From Naganishia liquefaciens (lineage: Eukaryota; Basidiomycota; Tremellomycetes; Filobasidiales; Filobasidiaceae): DNA of 64,000 nt. The stretch is from NCBI GenBank assembly GCA_013423385.1, contig BLZA01000057.1, positions 249,533 to 313,532 of the forward strand. The letters are read 5' to 3'. Below are positions 3,816-41,167 of the stretch, piece by piece. Positions within the stretch are counted from its first letter, which is position 1, and each line of letters opens with the position of its first letter. The translations under genes were made by a program, and so were the position numbers. The notes beneath the pieces are model-generated. The model saw nothing but the letters and a program-made list of their open reading frames with translations. It was not told the DNA's origin and did not search any database.

Positions 3816-4777
3816 CTAGATCTTCTCCCCCCCGGCGCGCCATCGTTCAACGGCCTGCATGACTTTGGTCGTCACGTCCTCGGCGGTCGAATTTTTGCCG
3901 AACGCATCGACAAATTGTCCGTGCGGGTCCATCAGGTAGAAGAAGATGCTGTCGTGACGAGTAATGAGCACGGCCTTCCTGGACACGTCTATGTCACGGG
4001 AACGAAAAGAACTCACCTATGATCCACAAGATAATCATCCTCGGCCTTGGCATCCGGCGGTGTCGAAAAGTAAACGCGGTAGCTCCTGCACGCCTTCTTC
4101 ACCTGATCGTACGTGCCCGTCAATCCAATCATGCGTGGGTGAAAGTCGCGGATGTAGGCCGTCACTTGCGGCAAGGTGTCGCGCGCCGGATCGCAGGAGA
4201 TGAAGATGGGTTGAATCACGGGCTTGCCGAGGAGTTTATCTGGCGCGGTGGATGAGTATGGGAAGATGGGAAATGACGAGTCAACGTACCTGTCTCATCA
4301 ACGACATCGCTCATCTTGTCCAATTCCTCGGGACAGATATCCGGGCAATTCGTAAAGCCAAAGTAGATCAACGTAAACTTGCCCAAGAGATCGCGTTCTG
4401 TGAATTCCTTGGGCGTCCGATTCGTTGATGACGGTGCCGCCGTCAAGACGAATGGCCCGCCAATATTTGGCTTTCCGACAGACGACGTCAGGGCCTCTTG
4501 ACCTTTTGTTTTCTCGACTTAGCTTCCGAATCCACGTAGCGATCTCCGTCCCTGGCGACTCACGCTTTCGTTCCTGAATCTTTCCCTTTTCCGACTCAAA
4601 GTACGCATACAGTCCGGCGCCGGTCGCGAGAAAGAGCGTCGCAGCCTTCCACGTGAACGGACCGATGGCGGACTTGTCGCGAAAGCTGCTTGCATAGCGT
4701 CGCTGGAGCGGCTGAGCAGCTCGGCGCGACAGAGAGGCTGTCGATGAGCGCAGGAGCGAGCGGGAGAATGACTGCAT
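3816..4777 (-). CDS. SCO1: Cytochrome c oxidase copper chaperone SCO1
   Basis: Inner-membrane protein with a thioredoxin fold that delivers copper to the CuA site of Cox2. Exons 4777-4564, 4502-4290, 4239-4017 and 3948-3816 give 260 residues. The N-terminus ([19 protein letters not shown]) is an Arg/Ser-rich mitochondrial presequence, followed by one membrane helix ([16 protein letters not shown]). The copper-binding CPDIC lies in [17 protein letters not shown], and the third ligand, His, lies in [15 protein letters not shown], which is complete only after removal of the 68-base last intron. An in-frame ATG at 4810 would add 11 residues; 4777 is preferred because it starts the presequence directly. 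Divergent from the SR-protein gene. Confidence 0.93.
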
Positions 4778-7698: not shown

Positions 7699-9424
7699 AT
7701 GTCTGACGTTACCATTACCTCCTTCGACATTCACGATGTCCGTTTCCCTACCAACGTTACCGGTGACGGTACCGATGCCATGAACAAGGAATGCGACTAC
7801 TCGGCTGCGTACATAGTGTTGCATACCTCGTCGGACCTCAAAGGTCAAGGCATGACCTTTAGTAAGCTCCTCACTTGTCTTCAAGTAACCCTGCTGATCT
7901 CCCGCAGCCATCGGTCGAGGCAATGACATTGTTTGCTACGCCATGGAACAGGTCGCCCAGCGAGTCGTCGGCAAGAGCGTGGAAGAATTCTTTGCCAGCA
8001 TGGGCAAGACGTATGACTTCCTCGTCTCGGACCCGCAACAGCGATGGCTTGGCCCGGAAAAGGGCGTTATACATCTCGCCGTTGCCGCTGTCGCCAACGC
8101 CATCTGGGACATGTTCGCCAAGGCGCGCGGAAAGCCCTTGTGGAAACTCATTGTAGACTTTACGCCGGAAGAGTTTGTGAACGCCACCACGTTCCGATAC
8201 ATTACCGATGCCATCAACCAGGAAGAGGCTTTGGCCTTGCTGAAAAAGCTCGAGCCGACAAAGCAAGCCCGTGAAAAGGAAGTCATCGAGCGTGGATACC
8301 CGTCGTACACCACCTCGGTCGGATGGCTCGGATACTCGGATGAGAAGATTGCGCGACTGACCAAGGAGTCGTTGAATGCTGGATTCAACCACTTCAAGCT
8401 CAAGGTCGGAGCCGACTGGGAAGACGATCTCCGACGTGGTCTCCTGATCCGATCGATTATTGACGACCCTGCCAACATCCGAGAGGACCGAAAGAACATC
8501 GACCCCAAGACGATTGCGGGCAAGAATGCCGGTCCCACTGGGTGTGTCTTGATGGTCGATGCCAACCGTGAGTCTTAGAAGCTATTTCCTCCTGTTTTTT
8601 TGCTAATCCTCCCTTTAGAGGTCTGGGATGTACCTCAGGCGATTGAGTACATGAAGAAGCTCAAGCCTCTCAACCCGTGGTTCATCGAGGAACCCACCGC
8701 ACCGGATGACTACGTGGGTCACGCCGCTATTCGAAAGGCCTTGGCACCGGAAGGTATCAAGGTCGCTACCGGTGAACACTGCCACAACCGAGTATGTTTC
8801 CTGCCTGTTCATCATACGGGGTTATCGCTGACAAGGTATCTGTAGATGGGATTCAAGCAGCTCTTGCAGCTCGAGGCCATTGACGTGTGTCAGATCGACT
8901 CGTGCCGAATCGGCGGTGTCAGCGAGATCTTAGGCGTGCTGTTGATGTCGGCCAAGTAGGTTCAGCAAATATGCCCTCCGGTCGTTTCTGACGATTCTTT
9001 AGGTTCGGCATTCCCGTCTGCCCCCACGCCGGTGGTGTCGGTCTGTGTGAATACGTCGTAAGTAGCCCAGAGTCGTTGAACGCGACACTGGCTGATGATT
9101 TTTGTAGATCCACCTTTCCCTCATTGACTACATTTGCGTATCGGGCACGATGGACACCAACGTTCTGGAGTTTGTCGACCACTTGCACGAGCACTTCCTG
9201 TATCCCGTCTCTATCAACGACCAGGGTCGATACAAGTAAGTCTCTTGCGGACTTTCATCCGCCTTGCAACCCGCTGATGTCCCTTTCACAGCGTCCCGCT
9301 CGGCGAAAAGGTCGGCTACAGTATCGAAATGTACCAAGAATCAATGGAAAAGTTTGCCTTCCCCGGAGGCGAATACTGGCAGCTTGCTGCGCAGGGCAAG
9401 GCGCCCAAGCTCAACGGTCACTGA
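7699..9424 (+). CDS. L-fuconate dehydratase-type enolase-superfamily enzyme (ENOSF1-like)
   Basis: Mandelate-racemase subgroup enzyme expected to dehydrate a sugar acid such as L-fuconate to a 2-keto-3-deoxy acid. Exons 7699-7861, 7908-8567, 8619-8791, 8846-8955, 9003-9057, 9108-9235 and 9292-9424 give 473 residues. The active-site set is intact: the KxK base in [11 protein letters not shown], metal ligands in [21 protein letters not shown] and ATGEHCHNR, then IDSCRIGG and the His of [13 protein letters not shown]. Length and motif order match ENOSF1/L-fuconate dehydratase better than muconate-lactonising or rhamnonate enzymes, but substrate choice cannot be fixed by eye. No other fucose-pathway gene is adjacent; the rhamnose-type dehydrogenase lies 50 kb away. 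Confidence 0.9.
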
Positions 9425-10005
9425 GCGGGCAATCTGTATTCGGTTGTAGAGAAAGCGGCATTGCGTCGGGCGACGTCGCAGACTGTATTATAGATTAATG
9501 GGTTGGATTGGCTATGAACAAGGCCTCTCGCTGTCGAAGTGTTGCTTCACGGGCTGTGCGATGTCTTCCACTTGGCTGTATACGTTGGCGGCGTAATATG
9601 TTAATAATCAACGGAATGGAGGCTATCGAATAGTTATAGAAAAGCCGAAGACGTCGAGACACAGCAATATCACCTGCATTTGACGGGACTTGCGGATGAT
9701 TATTTGACAACCGATCCAACATATTATCCCGTCCGGCGACGTCGCTATACCTTGCCGTGTCTCGTGACCGACTGCGGTGACCGAAATAGGACTTGTGCAA
9801 TTTCGAATAGCAACGGGCATGACCGCGCATGTCCAGTATTACGTCATTTCGACTTGAGCCTCTTCTTAATTCGAATTCGCACTTCATGCTTATGCACGCG
9901 CAGCGGATCAACGAAGCAGTGACGAGCCAGCGGGATATATAGCAGGGACTTGCTCCACATAGCTCGAAGACCCCTCGAAATAGCTATCAACCCAATTCCA
10001 ACAAG
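9425..10005. other. Intergenic, promoter of the decarboxylase gene
   Basis: About 580 bases between two plus-strand genes. It holds the dehydratase 3' end and the decarboxylase promoter, including a TATA-like box close to the start. No further gene is seen. Confidence 0.5.
9934..9943 (+). promoter_or_regulatory. TATA-like box of the decarboxylase gene
   Basis: The sequence GATATATAGC lies about 63 bases before the ATG at 10006. A TATA box in this position is common for strongly regulated fungal genes. Assignment rests on motif and distance only. Confidence 0.5.
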
Positions 10006-11564
10006 ATGCCGCACAACAAGATGGACCCAAAGAACCCCAACGTGCCCGAAGAGCACCATGTGCACCGGTACGCATTCATCGGATGGCGCTGCCAATGGGA
10101 ATACTTACAGTGATCCGTTGCATTCAGCATCGGACATTGGCTCTCGCAAGATAGGCGACATCATCATGCCTTTGCGAACCAGACGATCAAGCATGTTGAT
10201 GACCATCCTAAGGAGCTACTGCCGGTGATGAAGGAGTTCAAGGAGACGGTTGAAAAGGACAGCCGGCTGTACATGCTCTTCAACGCCATGTTCGACCAGG
10301 TAGGTCTCGTGCCCATTTTGCTACGTCTCTGACTCATCTGTGCGTCTAGGTTCCAAAAGGCAAAAGATATCTCACCGATCCCACTGGGGAATACGAAAAG
10401 ATTCGAGACTTCGACCACATGCTCGCCGTCCTCAATTACATCATCGAGACTGCGCCCGCATGGACAGACGCGGGACACTCGGTGGGTCTCGTAGGAGTAC
10501 CTATTAATGCTATCCTTGACTGGGGAATGGGCACCGCCGCGGGATTCGCCGTCTACCAAGACCCGCAAGTGAACCAGATGTTAAAACGCGTGCTAGATGT
10601 CTGGGCCGGATACCTGACGAGTCCAGAAAGCGCCGAGGTTTTGGGCAGCGATAAGACGGGATGGTTCTCTGAGCACGGTATCAAGTCTATCGAGGAGGTG
10701 GCGAATATCGGGGAAACCAGCTACAAGTTTCACGAGTTGTTCGAGTGTGATCCCAAGGCGAAGCATATGGGTTACAAATCGTGGGATGACTATGTGAGTG
10801 GAACGAGGCTGAAGTAGAATTCCTGTTGACAAGTGCGCAGTTCACCCGAGTTTTCCGCTTCGACGAAGGCATTCGACCCATTGCCGAGCCTGAAAACGAC
10901 AATGTTGTGGTCAACAGCTGTGAAAGCATGGTCTACAAGGTCGCCCGCGATATTCATCGACGTGACAAGTTTTGGATCAAGGGCCAGCCGTATAGCACGA
11001 TCGACATGTTTGCACAGGATGAGTTTGCGGAACAGTTTGTGGGCGGAACGATCTACCAGGCTTTCCTGAGCGCACTGTCTTACCACCGATGGCATGCGCC
11101 TGTATCTGGCAAGATCGTCAAGGCCTACGTCGTTCCGGGAACATACTACAGCGAGCCCCTCTACGAAGACTTTGAGGCGAATGGTGGGCCATCCTCCGAA
11201 GGCGAGAACAATAGCCAGGAGTACCTATCCGTCGTCGCCACTCGAGCCATCATCTTTATTGAGGCGGACAACCCAAAGATCGGATTGATGGCCTTTATGG
11301 GTATCGGGATGACGGAAGTGTCCACGTGCGAGATCACAGTCAAGGTCGGGGATCACGTCAAGAAAGGATCTCAGTTGGGATTGTTCCACTTTGGAGATAA
11401 GTCTCGCGCGTTCATTTGGCCGTTCAGGGGCTAATCGCTCTTCCGCTTTACGCAGCACCCATGTCAACTGTTTCCGAAAGGGCGTCAAGCTGCAAGGTTT
11501 CCCGGATCCGAGCCGAAAGCACAATGTTCCTGTCAGGAGCAAGCTGTGTGAGGTGGTGGATTGA
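10006..11564 (+). CDS. PsiD-like pyruvoyl-dependent amino acid decarboxylase (PSD superfamily)
   Basis: Member of the phosphatidylserine decarboxylase superfamily with the fungal N-terminal extension seen in the L-tryptophan decarboxylase PsiD. Exons 10006-10067, 10128-10299, 10350-10793, 10841-11396 and 11452-11564 give 448 residues, close to PsiD. Residues about 20-200 form the family N-terminal region (IGHWLSQDRRHHHAF, GVPINAILDWGMGT); the PSD core has YHRWHAPVSGKIVKAYVVPG with the conserved His and GIGMTEVSTCEITV. The pyruvoyl-forming motif FHFGGSTHVNCF (Ser about 413) exists only if intron 11397-11451 is removed with ATAAGT and TTTAC ends, that is AT-AC borders. Conventional GT-AG choices there lose the serine or the frame. 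Unlike mitochondrial PSDs, no presequence or membrane anchor is visible, so a soluble enzyme on a free amino acid is likely. Substrate unknown. Confidence 0.87.
11397..11451 (+). other. Probable AT-AC intron in the decarboxylase gene
   Basis: A 55-base segment begins ATAAGT and ends TTTAC, with a CTAAT branch-like site at 11431. Removing it joins GGA-G to GC-AGC-ACC and creates the GGST self-cleavage motif. The donor is a G-to-A variant of the major-class GTAAGT, not the U12 ATATCCTT, so a U2-type AT-AC intron is favoured. Confidence 0.75.
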
Positions 11565-12025
11565 TTGTTGTATGAAGCAAAGATTCCGAGTTGTTCGCCA
11601 TAAAAGACGAAAACGTTGTAAGAGCATCATCACTATACATGCATGTGACGGCACGGGCGACACAGACGTCTGGATCCATCGTCAAGGTCTTTCCCGTCCA
11701 TCAGCTTGATATCCAGCATGTTCCGGACGCAGCCTCCTGTCCTCGTTCGTCGCATCTTTGCGAAGACATGGAAATCGACAATGCCACCCGGCGAGCATCG
11801 CCGTTACTGACTGCAACGGAAATAGCGCTGTCATGTAAACCATCAGTGCTCAGTTGACTCAATTGACCCATGCTCTGCACGCCGCGCATTGCGATCATCG
11901 TCGAGCGAGCCGATTCAGCGGACCATCGATGGTAGGGTGGCTTGAGAGGAAATCTCGATGGCTTCCAATAAGACATGTACGGCTCGTAATGGGATTCCGC
12001 GTCACATTCGGCAGCTCTCGCCTCG
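11565..12025. other. Convergent intergenic, decarboxylase and MOD5 3' ends
   Basis: About 460 bases separate the stop codons of the two convergent genes. Short frames occur on both strands but none is supported. Confidence 0.5.
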
Positions 12026-14352
12026 TCACAGCCCAACATCTTCCATATGCTCCTCTGACCTCGCTCGGGCAGCAGCTGCTTCCTCTTCTTTGGCCGCCTT
12101 TCGCCGCGCGGCTTCCTCCCTCACAGCTGTGTAGTCTGGGCCCTTTCCCATTTCGCGATCGCGTTGCGCTTTTGACCTGCAGCAGATTTAGCAATCTCAT
12201 ATGGCAAAGAGGAGTCGACTGACCGTCGATGAGACTTGGATTTTAGGTGGGCAATCCATTCGGATTTGATAATTGTTACTGGTTGACTTGGTGTTGAACA
12301 AACTTCGCACTCTAGGCGTGCATTGAGAAGCTGGCGTCTGAACGATTGTGGTCAGCGCCCATAGCAAGTCCGACATCATAGCTCACTGTTGAATATCAGG
12401 CACTGTAGTGCCGGCCGCTCCCTCATTCTCAGTGCCATCCTCGGCTGTAGCCAAAAGTTTGAGGAGCTCTTCGGCCCTGGGATGTCCAATTGTCCGGTAA
12501 TCTGGCATAGGCTCGTCCCGCATAAAGCCTGTGAGACGAGCATCAGTGACGTTGCATTGCCCAGAAAAAGTCAAAACCTGACGTTGCAAGATCTCTTCAC
12601 CAAGGGCAACATCCGCATCCCCCCCGCGAACCACATACACCCAGACTGATTGCTCTTCCTGCCCGCCAGTGCGTTCTTGGTTGAGCGCCTGCCTGATGAC
12701 CGGAAGAAGCTGTTTTTGAATCCACTTGAGCTGTCGTTTCGCGTATTGTCGAGTACTGATCTTCATACGCTCGAGGGCGGGCGCGAATAGCGGATCTGAA
12801 GGCGTGAGACGAGAGGTCGGGATATGCGAGAATTCCTTGTATCCTGGATTCGAATCAGTGTGCGCTGTCAAACCAACTCTTGAAGCGGCATACCAATGCT
12901 CTGGAAAATGCCTTCTTGATGGTCGATGGCCTCTTCGGTGCCGTATATGTGCACAGCAATCTCGCGCAATTGTTTAATTTCGTCAATGAGGCCGAGCTGT
13001 ACACAAATGCGATAAGCCAATGGAGTGTATACTATGCGCAGACACCTACTTCAACCATCTTGTCCACTCTGCGATCGAGCCGCGGTGCAAGTTTTTCTAG
13101 GTCATCATACACCCAGAACATAAGTGTGCGTAGTCTAGGCAGTGGTTCAGCTGAAGTCATGACCTGAAACCCTTGGTGATGCTCACCTCGGTCGCGCGAC
13201 GCTCTGTTCCTGGCTCTCCTCTTCAGTCTCGCCATCTTTCTTCGCGGGACCGCGCCGGACCGCTTCAACACTCTCCCACCATCGCTCCAACGCACGTTTT
13301 ACCTTCCGCCCATCCCTCCAGTGCCATCGTCCGGCTTCACGCTCGTCCAACAGTGCGAGGAGTCTATGTTGTGCAAGCAATTGCCGATCCGATAGAGTTG
13401 TTTCGGAGCTGCATGACGTTCCGTTGGATTCGATCCAGCTAGGCGGGAAGACGGGTTCTGGAAGATAGAAAGTATCGAGATAGTGACGAATATCTGGTTC
13501 GGATCCTATCTTGTCAGCTATTCCATGAGAGCGCGCATCGATCCGGCCAAGGGTATCCAAGACCTCGTCTATGCTGTACTGGGGCCGCCATTTGGTGTTC
13601 TTGCTTTTGCTGACTATTCCATTCGTGGTGTTCCGGTCAAAGGAAAGTTGGGATGGCGGGAAGAGAAAGTGTTGCGTGTAATAGTGCGTGCCGCCGCAAA
13701 TGATGGGTAGCTCCGTCATTGGATTCATACATTCGATCTATCCGTGATGGCATCAGCACAGGTGACGACTTTTGGTGCACAAGCAAATCGCAAGTCTGTG
13801 CATTCTGGCAGCACCAGTTGAGGTACGACATTTGCCATTCTCGGACGTGGTGAATCTGCTACAAAGGTTTCGATGACACATGGTCGAGACGCGATGACAT
13901 TGTCACTTCGTACAACTGAGATATGTCGTCTTTCCATCCGCCAGTATTGTTCAGATCATCACTCATGTCCGCTTTGCAGCTCTGCATATTTCCTGCCCGC
14001 CCGCTTCCAAATGGACACGACGTGCGCATGGATCGGGCCGAACACTGGATTCCCGCATGTAACTCACCTTTTCCCAAGCCTCCAGACACCACTTGCCCAC
14101 CTCCCAACTGCCACCTTCTCCTGGCTTGACGCATCCGATCCCCCAATGTTCCACGCCTGCCATCTCCTGTTCGGTCGCCTTATTTGTGATGACCGGCAAT
14201 CCTTCGTAGAGTTGCATGGAATCTGATGAGAGGACGGTTGGGCGAATGCTTGCGTGTTGCAAGGCTTGCGACCGGGCCAAGGAAATAGCATATTGGGATT
14301 TTCCAACACCGGTGGTACCGATTACGGCGAGGACATTACGCGGAGATGCCAT
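12026..14352 (-). CDS. MOD5: tRNA dimethylallyl(isopentenyl)transferase
   Basis: Adds an isopentenyl group to A37 of tRNAs that read UNN codons. Exons 14352-14068, 13737-13187, 13134-13050, 12996-12894, 12843-12387, 12337-12224 and 12176-12026 give 581 residues. Motifs in order: P-loop GTTGVGKS, LSSDSMQLYEGLPVITNKAT, the substrate-site ICGGTHYYTQHFLFPP, ARWHWRD-like RWHWRDGRKVKRAL, LRTLMFWVYDDLEKLAPR, QSIGYKEF, and a C-terminal matrin-type C2H2 zinc finger LECEVC...EWIAHLKSKSHRR as in yeast Mod5. The first intron is about 330 bases, far longer than its neighbours; it joins WCLEAWEK to IECMNPMTELP cleanly. The second junction uses a 52-base intron ending GCCTAG. Confidence 0.9.
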
Positions 14353-14611
14353 GTTGCGGCGCAGGGTCAGATAAACAACTGGAGGCAGAGTGAATCAGGG
14401 AATGAGGAAATGCATGTTGAATGGATGAAAGCAGCGAGATGCAGGCACGGACGGATGCAAATAACCGCGGCGCCCGAAACGTCATCCCGTCGATCGCATA
14501 CGCGTGAGTCGTCACGCCCGTGTACATGATCCGCTCGCTTCTCTTCATATCCCTACACTTGATGACTTTGCCCTTCTCCTCCTCGGTGCGATAACCTGAT
14601 ACCTAGAACGC

Positions 14612-39700: not shown

Positions 39701-41167
39701 TTATGCCTTCTCCCTCATCTGGAAAGTCTGGGTGGCCTGTCGTGCCTTGTCTGCCTTGCTTTGGGACTGCTTGGCGATGGCGTAGACGAGACCTGCAATG
39801 AAACCGGTTCCGACGGCGGAAACGGAGCCAAAGTTGACCGGGTCGCCGAAGAAGATCATGCCTGATGCGGCGACAGGAAGCTTGTTGAGAGCGCCGACCA
39901 TACTGTAGGTGGTCGAACTGGTGGTTCGAATGCACCATGCGGTCGAGTATGAGATGAAGACGGCGGCGGCACCAGAGAAAGCCATGGCAAACAACAAGAA
40001 GCCTCGAGCTTCAGCAGGGCTGTAGTGGAGACGTCAGCTTGGCTACTGCGAGATTTCGACTCTACACCTACAAGTTGAGGTTGAGGTTCTCCGATCCCCA
40101 GTCTTCGAGCAAGACCGAAGCAACGACGAGAATGGGAATGCAGAGCAAGTTGTTGTAGAACATCGAGTCCCAGTCCTTGAAGCCGGTCAACTTGATTCGC
40201 TTTCGCATGGCCAAGACCTGATGGGTATGCTTAGCGCTGGCAGAGAATCGACTGCCAAAATCGATAACGTACATAAGCAGCGGAGAAGATGCAGTTGCTC
40301 GCCATCCAGAAGTATCCGCCGTTAATGCTGCCGAGCATACTCTTGGGCACGAACGGAATTTCAGCGCCGGTGACGGGATCGACGGCTTCAACTACGCTGG
40401 CCATCGCGTTCAAGCTGGTGGAAATATCGGACCAGGCAGCCACGATCGAAGATCCGACCATCAAGGCGAACGCAACCAATGTCAAACTAGTGACGTGACC
40501 GCCGAACCAAATGACTTCTCCGTAGGCAATCAAGATAATGGTCAAGTTCTTGAAGATTGTGTAGACGGGAATCGACAGGTACTGCAGCGACTTGGAACCG
40601 GTGTAGATGACCGAGACCAGCAAGGCCGAGATCGGGAACCAGATTTTGGCGTCCTTCATGTCAAAGTCACGGAAGTCGATCACGCGCATTTTCTTGGCAA
40701 CGTATACGAGGGAGACACAGACAACTGATTGAATGGTCAAGAGGAGGAAAGTCATCGAGAAGTGGTGTCCTGACACCACGAACTGCACAATGGACATGAG
40801 CCGTCAGTCAAGTGTGTTGAGCATAGTCGGCAATAACGAACCTTGTTAACGACGGTCATCATGATGGATGCACCACAATACGCAGCGATGGCAAGGACTT
40901 TCGAGGCATTCTTATCAGTACTCAATCACGTAATTTCACACACGGTTGAGACTCACTACCACTGGGGTTTCCCTGCGACGGCTTGTTCATCTCCTGCAGT
41001 CGAGCATCAGCTGCACCTTCCTCTCGAGCCTCCAACAGGGTCTCTCGAGCCTCAACATCAGGCTGTCCTGGGTATTTGCTGTCGGGAGGATATTGCTGGA
41101 CGTTGCTGAACGATGCCGTCCGCGACAGGGGCGGAGTCGCTGGTCTTGAAGTCGAGGTAGCAGCCAT
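39701..41167 (-). CDS. VRG4: Golgi GDP-mannose transporter
   Basis: Brings GDP-mannose into the Golgi for mannosylation; Cryptococcus calls it GMT1. Exons 41167-40957, 40897-40842, 40782-40273, 40217-40072 and 40019-39701 give 413 residues. A 70-residue hydrophilic N-terminus precedes about ten membrane helices. The nucleotide-sugar motifs of this family are both present: FYNN in [16 protein letters not shown] and GALNKLP in [19 protein letters not shown]. Other landmarks are [39 protein letters not shown] and the Lys-rich C-terminal tail ([15 protein letters not shown]), probably a sorting signal. The first junction needs the acceptor GAAAG (intron 40956-40898) to keep the frame. Confidence 0.93.

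Follow-up and report, generated by a model that had tools for sequence, protein, structure and literature searches.

The decarboxylase gene and its neighbours

The window, i.e., the whole stretch of 64,000 nucleotides that was analysed, carries on its forward strand, at 10006-11564 (+), a gene for a PsiD-like decarboxylase with five exons and a product of 448 residues. Introns 1-3 are of the GT-AG type and intron 4 is AT-AC. Exon 1 (10006-10067, +) starts with the ATG at 10006, as given by direct reading, scripted splicing, and homologues, two of which (P0001 and P0006) have EHHVHR.G.W(M/L)SQDRRH at this place. Intron 1 (GT-AG, 60 nt, 10068-10127, +) is absent from the picks of the automatic intron scan and was chosen by frame and homologues, while introns 2 (GT-AG, 50 nt, 10300-10349, +) and 3 (GT-AG, 47 nt, 10794-10840, +) were given by both scripted splicing and the scan. 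Exon 2 (10128-10299, +) follows from scripted splicing, and exon 3 (10350-10793, +), placed by splicing and Pfam, holds most of the PSDC domain. Exon 4 (10841-11396, +) carries the PS_Dcarbxylase domain as far as FHFG and ends on the first base of the Gly codon that follows. Intron 4 (AT-AC, 55 nt, 11397-11451, +) has the donor ATAAGT (11397-11402), a branch-like CTAAT (11431-11435), and the end TTTAC; exon 5 (11452-11564, +) then reads GC AGC ACC and continues to the stop codon at 11562-11564. The intron thus splits the codon of Gly412 directly before Ser413 (AGC, 11454-11456, in exon 5), which is the expected pyruvoyl precursor of the enzyme.

The product of AT-AC splicing matches Pfam PSDC with 179.2 bits and PS_Dcarbxylase with 123.6 bits (cut-offs 23.4 and 22). 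It is akin in sequence, over most of its length, to the L-tryptophan decarboxylase chains 8x4q and 8zia and to the PsiD-like protein 9jer. The solved chains end in FHFGG (8zia, 8x4q) or FHSGGS (9jer), which fits the expected point of cleavage. By its domains and its G-S motif, the protein is a PsiD-like pyruvoyl decarboxylase of the PSD family, with self-cleavage and decarboxylase activity as predicted properties. What sets the gene apart from those of the PsiD-type enzymes is an intron that splits the Gly codon preceding the Ser. The best three homologues are from N. friedmannii (77%), N. vaughanmartiniae (75%), and N. cerealis (72%), and judging from these the source is a basidiomycete near Naganishia. 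When we searched the genome (19,446,910 bases in 28 contigs) with the DNA around the motif (11200-11620), the sole match was the query itself, and a search for the PS_Dcarbxylase family gave weaker matches on contigs C7 and C24.

The gene models of P0002 (N. vaughanmartiniae) and P0003 (N. cerealis) join the decarboxylase to a PF07823 domain, which is either a true fusion or an annotation that merged neighbouring genes. Upstream in the window, an ORF at 7898-8578 (+) has a weak likeness to the N-terminal domain of mandelate racemase and muconate lactonizing enzymes (PF02746; 19.9 bits, below the cut-off of 22). Downstream, on the opposite strand, lies a gene at 12386-14394 (-) whose three ORF pieces all match IPP transferase (PF01715), and which probably encodes a tRNA isopentenyltransferase.

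A probable AT-AC intron at the cleavage motif

The borders of intron 4 are AT at 11397-11398 and AC at 11450-11451, in the context G|ATAAGT...CTAAT...TTTAC|GCAG. Positions +3 to +6 (AAGT) agree with the RAGT of the major class. The second A of CTAAT lies 17 nt before the end of the intron, and the corresponding distance is 10-23 nt in 80 of the 101 putative GT-AG introns that we found in 264 kb of the genome (see below). Three products can be read from this region. Removal of the AT-AC intron gives ...LGLFHFGGSTHVNCFRKGVKLQGFPDPSRKHNVPVRSKLCEVVD and the stop codon at 11562-11564. Removal of a GT-AG alternative of the same length (11401-11455, 55 nt) gives FHFGDNTH and keeps the frame up to that stop. 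If the segment is retained, the product is FHFGDKSRAFIWPFRG with a short tail: past FHFG the retained frame reads DKSRAFIWPFRG and ends at the TAA of CTAAT. Direct reading and scripted splicing thus bear out the sequence-only reading of this locus, which had pointed to a 55-base segment ATAAGT...TTTAC with a CTAAT at the pyruvoyl motif, to a frame that its removal closes up to the stop at 11562, and to the loss of the Ser under the GT-AG alternative. The span that it gave, 11391-11465, does contain the intron and is a little wider than it.

To what extent the motif depends on this splice pair was assessed by combining all donors in 11330-11439 with all acceptors not beyond 11499, with a spacing of 30 nt or more and any end letters. 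This gave 9515 pairs, 3067 of which keep the frame to the stop. A single one, 11397-11451, rebuilds FHFGGSTHVNCFRKG, with FHFGGST directly before HVNCFRKG. One other pair, 11397-11436, which has the ends AT-TC, yields the motif followed by extra residues. Twenty more keep a G-S-T-H at the cost of a Gly, of entire conserved stretches, or of added residues; these include 11352-11451 (donor ATCACG), which has AT-AC ends and drops FHFG. None of the in-frame GT-AG or GC-AG pairs in this test yields the motif. Because 11397-11451 alone rebuilds both the motif and the residues that follow it, the match to AT-AC is more than chance, and the earlier claim that the catalytic Ser depends on AT-AC splicing gains support. 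An AT..AC pair equally shifted by up to 10 nt occurs at 9 of the 101 putative GT-AG introns, and at one of them when the donor has to be AT[AG]NG.

Search for further AT-AC introns

Additional introns were sought in 264 kb, consisting of the window and 200 kb of contig C7, with 31 long ORFs as the training set for the codon scores. The 101 putative GT-AG introns were obtained from reading frame and codon use, and some of them are false (perhaps a dozen, given the background counts of the control classes). With loose donors, the survey found these 101 GT-AG, 46 GT-AC, and 28 GC-AG introns, together with 16 AT-AC candidates and similar numbers in the controls (CT-AC 12, TT-AC 14, AT-AA 14, AT-AT 13, and AT-AG 13). 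Strict donors left three AT-AC candidates (CT-AC 0, TT-AC 1, AT-AA 2, AT-AT 0, AT-AG 2), and removal of the cases with a canonical overlap or a far branch left two (CT-AC 0, TT-AC 1, AT-AA 1, AT-AT 0, AT-AG 0). There is therefore no clear excess of AT-AC in the 264 kb, and the class is not separable from chance. Intron 4 itself is missed by the survey because its last exon scores 2.5 under a threshold of 4, so that the number of AT-AC introns in the genome cannot be read from these counts. The two strict AT-AC candidates that do not overlap a canonical intron lie in the window, at 40273-40340 (+) and 4256-4314 (-), and are probably due to chance.

Conservation of the motif and of the intron

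The motif GGS[ST] is present in 117 of the 120 best homologues, and the reads of the other three end at or in an intron: P0023 reads into it, and P0054 and P0117 end at ...QLG, which we take as the start of an intron. Among 119 further homologues, 73 have the motif and 46 lack it; 31 of these 46 end at ...LG (or one residue on), as do two of the three in the best 120, P0121 ends soon after FHFGG, and 14 others make up the rest. The read-through ORFs of such relatives end in ...KKGDQLG, roughly six codons before the cleavage motif. These relatives too therefore seem to have an intron near it, further upstream than that of the window gene, and different lineages would have introns near this site. 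A protein search with the 57-residue ORF covering intron 4 and the last exon, which sought the 3' part of a relative's intron, gave no match. A search of genome contigs with exon 4 returned 11 loci (L011-L021), all titled bacterial, and all 11 carry GGS[ST] in a frame that runs straight through without a break. None of the 239 homologues listed has F.FGDxT. Of these, 190 extend to the site and have GGS[ST] there, and in the other 49 the motif is not seen; the homologues with GDNT that the sequence-only reading had set against its own view are absent from this set.

The closest relatives are informative about the first base of the intron. P0023 and P0121 are ORF translations that retain intron letters; they cover neither of the 3' splice sites and leave the second intron base ambiguous. 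P0023, from a separate contig, has an insert where intron 3 lies in the window gene, and its exon 4 is 96% identical to that of the window over 185 columns. It reads ...FHFGDEYLGFVWLFEV up to a stop; it enters its intron as FHFG-DEYLG and, past FHFG, has DEYLGFVWLFEV before the stop. This stop, 12 residues further along, coincides with the TAA of the window's CTAAT, and the two retained readings are equal in length. The codons GAY GAR TAY imply A at +1, T or C at +2, G at +3, A at +4, a purine at +5, and T at +6, i.e., a first intron base A as in the window; the translation at +3 to +6 is G A R T. P0121 seems to begin inside intron 3 and reads ...FHFGGTSTVS before its stop, which puts a G at +1; its last residues would be intron, and with a T at +2 its donor would be GTACN-like. 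A normal GGS[ST] is present in P0001 to P0003. In the tree, which is rooted at its midpoint, P0023 is the sister of the window sequence (100/97), followed by P0121 (90/83) and P0001 (84/78), and the six rows on the Naganishia side group at 97/92. The forks that place P0121 and P0001 are not strong. The comparison of the same position in relatives, which had been put forward as a check, thus finds the A at +1 shared by P0023, and a G in P0121. This suggests, on the basis of P0121 and the tree, that the A is derived and arose in the ancestor of the window sequence and P0023.

Discussion

The most plausible explanation of these data is that 11397-11451 is a genuine U2-type AT-AC intron, constitutively removed and derived from a GT-AG intron; we hold this to be very probable. 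A GT-AG intron would have been present at the same position in a forebear of the window species and P0023, in whose ancestor the first intron base would have changed from G to A and the last from G to C. The matching AT..AC pair would then let the U2 spliceosome finish the second step at the AC and not at the CAG four bases downstream, and the resulting proenzyme would cut itself at Ser413 to make the pyruvoyl group. The AG that sits 4 nt past the AC would normally attract splicing, and this counts against the AT-AC reading.

The GT-AG pair at 11401-11455 (+) could be used instead, in which case the GDNT protein would be catalytically dead or have another function. Its ends are canonical, its length is equal, it is in frame, and a GT stands at +5/+6 in P0023 too, provided that its Glu is encoded by GAG. 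Yet the homologues listed speak against such a protein, as described above, and the residues that are G-S elsewhere would differ between the two, with D-N in the window and probably D-D in P0023. The donor GTCTCG belongs to the class GT[CT]NHN, which has 32 picks per 10,000 words, no more than non-GT control words (AT 33, CT 26, TT 28, GA 22) and thus at background; other GT classes have 39 (GT[CT]NGN), 27 (GT[AG]NHN), and 260 (GT[AG]NGN). The FHFGDNTH product also scores lower with PS_Dcarbxylase, 114.9 bits against 123.6. Given the homologues, the donor class, and the Pfam score, we reject this candidate, whose use appears improbable. We are equally sceptical of regulated splicing between an active AT-AC form and an inactive form made by GT-AG use or retention. 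The sequence-only reading had proposed such a switch, and the facts that the AT-AC and GT-AG forms share frame and stop and that retention yields a short tail would suit it. However, the decoy GT is a by-product of the donor consensus, because GT occurs at +5/+6 in 58 of the 101 putative GT-AG introns. Only three of them also have AG at the corresponding position in the following exon, and in four there is a GT..AG pair with any equal shift of up to 10 nt, so that the decoy is an uncommon yet ordinary coincidence. Besides a decoy donor class at background, RNA folding is no better than in shuffles (z +1.09), and a search of 9900-11700 against Rfam gave no match up to E 0.1. We thus find no support for the switch, and it is not a likely explanation.

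The remaining alternatives concern the reality and the class of the intron. Non-canonical ends in a single assembly can stem from error, and the gene might also be a pseudogene. Both are very unlikely: P0023, on a separate contig and with 96% identity in exon 4, shares the A at this base, the exons are open and closely conserved, and it is the exact AT/AC pair that restores the motif. AT-AC ends are a typical feature of the minor class, whose consensus has the donor ATATCC and the branch TTCCTTRAY. Intron 4 departs from this consensus with its donor ATAAGT, which has G at +5, and with its branch GGCTAAT, where CTAAT is U2-like; these signals favour the U2 type that had been read from the sequence. 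The genome has two U2 RNA loci (101.3 and 100 bits) and a U6 RNA (81.4 bits), and gave no match for U11, U12, U4atac, or U6atac, which are weak negatives since no control genome has these RNAs. Cutaneotrichosporon oleaginosum is a Tremellomycete. For this one fungus, a survey reports U12-type RNA genes (PMC7072748), which favours a U12-type intron, whereas another paper reports minor introns to be absent from Dikarya (PMC10639083). Taken together, we consider a U12-type intron 4 extremely unlikely.

Yeast genetics underlies the rule that the first and last bases of an intron must match. According to PMC2831892, the two bases of U2-type introns have to suit each other, and U2-type AT-AC introns with G at +5 are proposed to have come from U12-type introns and then to have been trapped by this need. 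The animal sodium channel introns discussed there (SCN4A intron 21 type) are U2-dependent and resemble intron 4 in their AT-AC ends, G at +5, and U2-type signals. They differ in the origin proposed for them: for intron 4, the G at +1 in the next relative and the absence of minor snRNA matches in the genome point to a change from GT-AG. In fungi, AT-AC is described as a minor non-canonical type in passages of PMC7072748; the class is rare there too, and those passages, from a survey of annotations, name no case like intron 4. The titles and abstract openings of the literature that we searched hold no report of it either.

We lean towards the view that a U2-type AT-AC intron arose from GT-AG within one genus, in a lineage without the minor spliceosome, by paired changes of its first and last bases, and was kept through at least one lineage split in an autocatalytic enzyme, at its most sensitive codon. 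The present case suggests such an origin from GT-AG. If true, this would be another route to U2-type AT-AC introns than the U12-to-U2 change proposed for animals. With an A shared by the sister and a G in the next relative, the locus offers a natural GT-AG to AT-AC case for studying the pairing of first and last bases. It also matters for annotation, as a gene finder limited to GT-AG or GC-AG would predict the wrong protein from this gene, one that is probably inactive.

Exon 4 has no relative among viral contigs, and its bacterial relatives are from Bacteroidales, Flavobacteriaceae, Parabeggiatoa, Desulfovibrio, Burkholderia, Pirellulales, and Anammoxibacter. Their identity to the fungal exon 4, 40-66%, is a hint that gene transfer took place between these bacteria and fungi.
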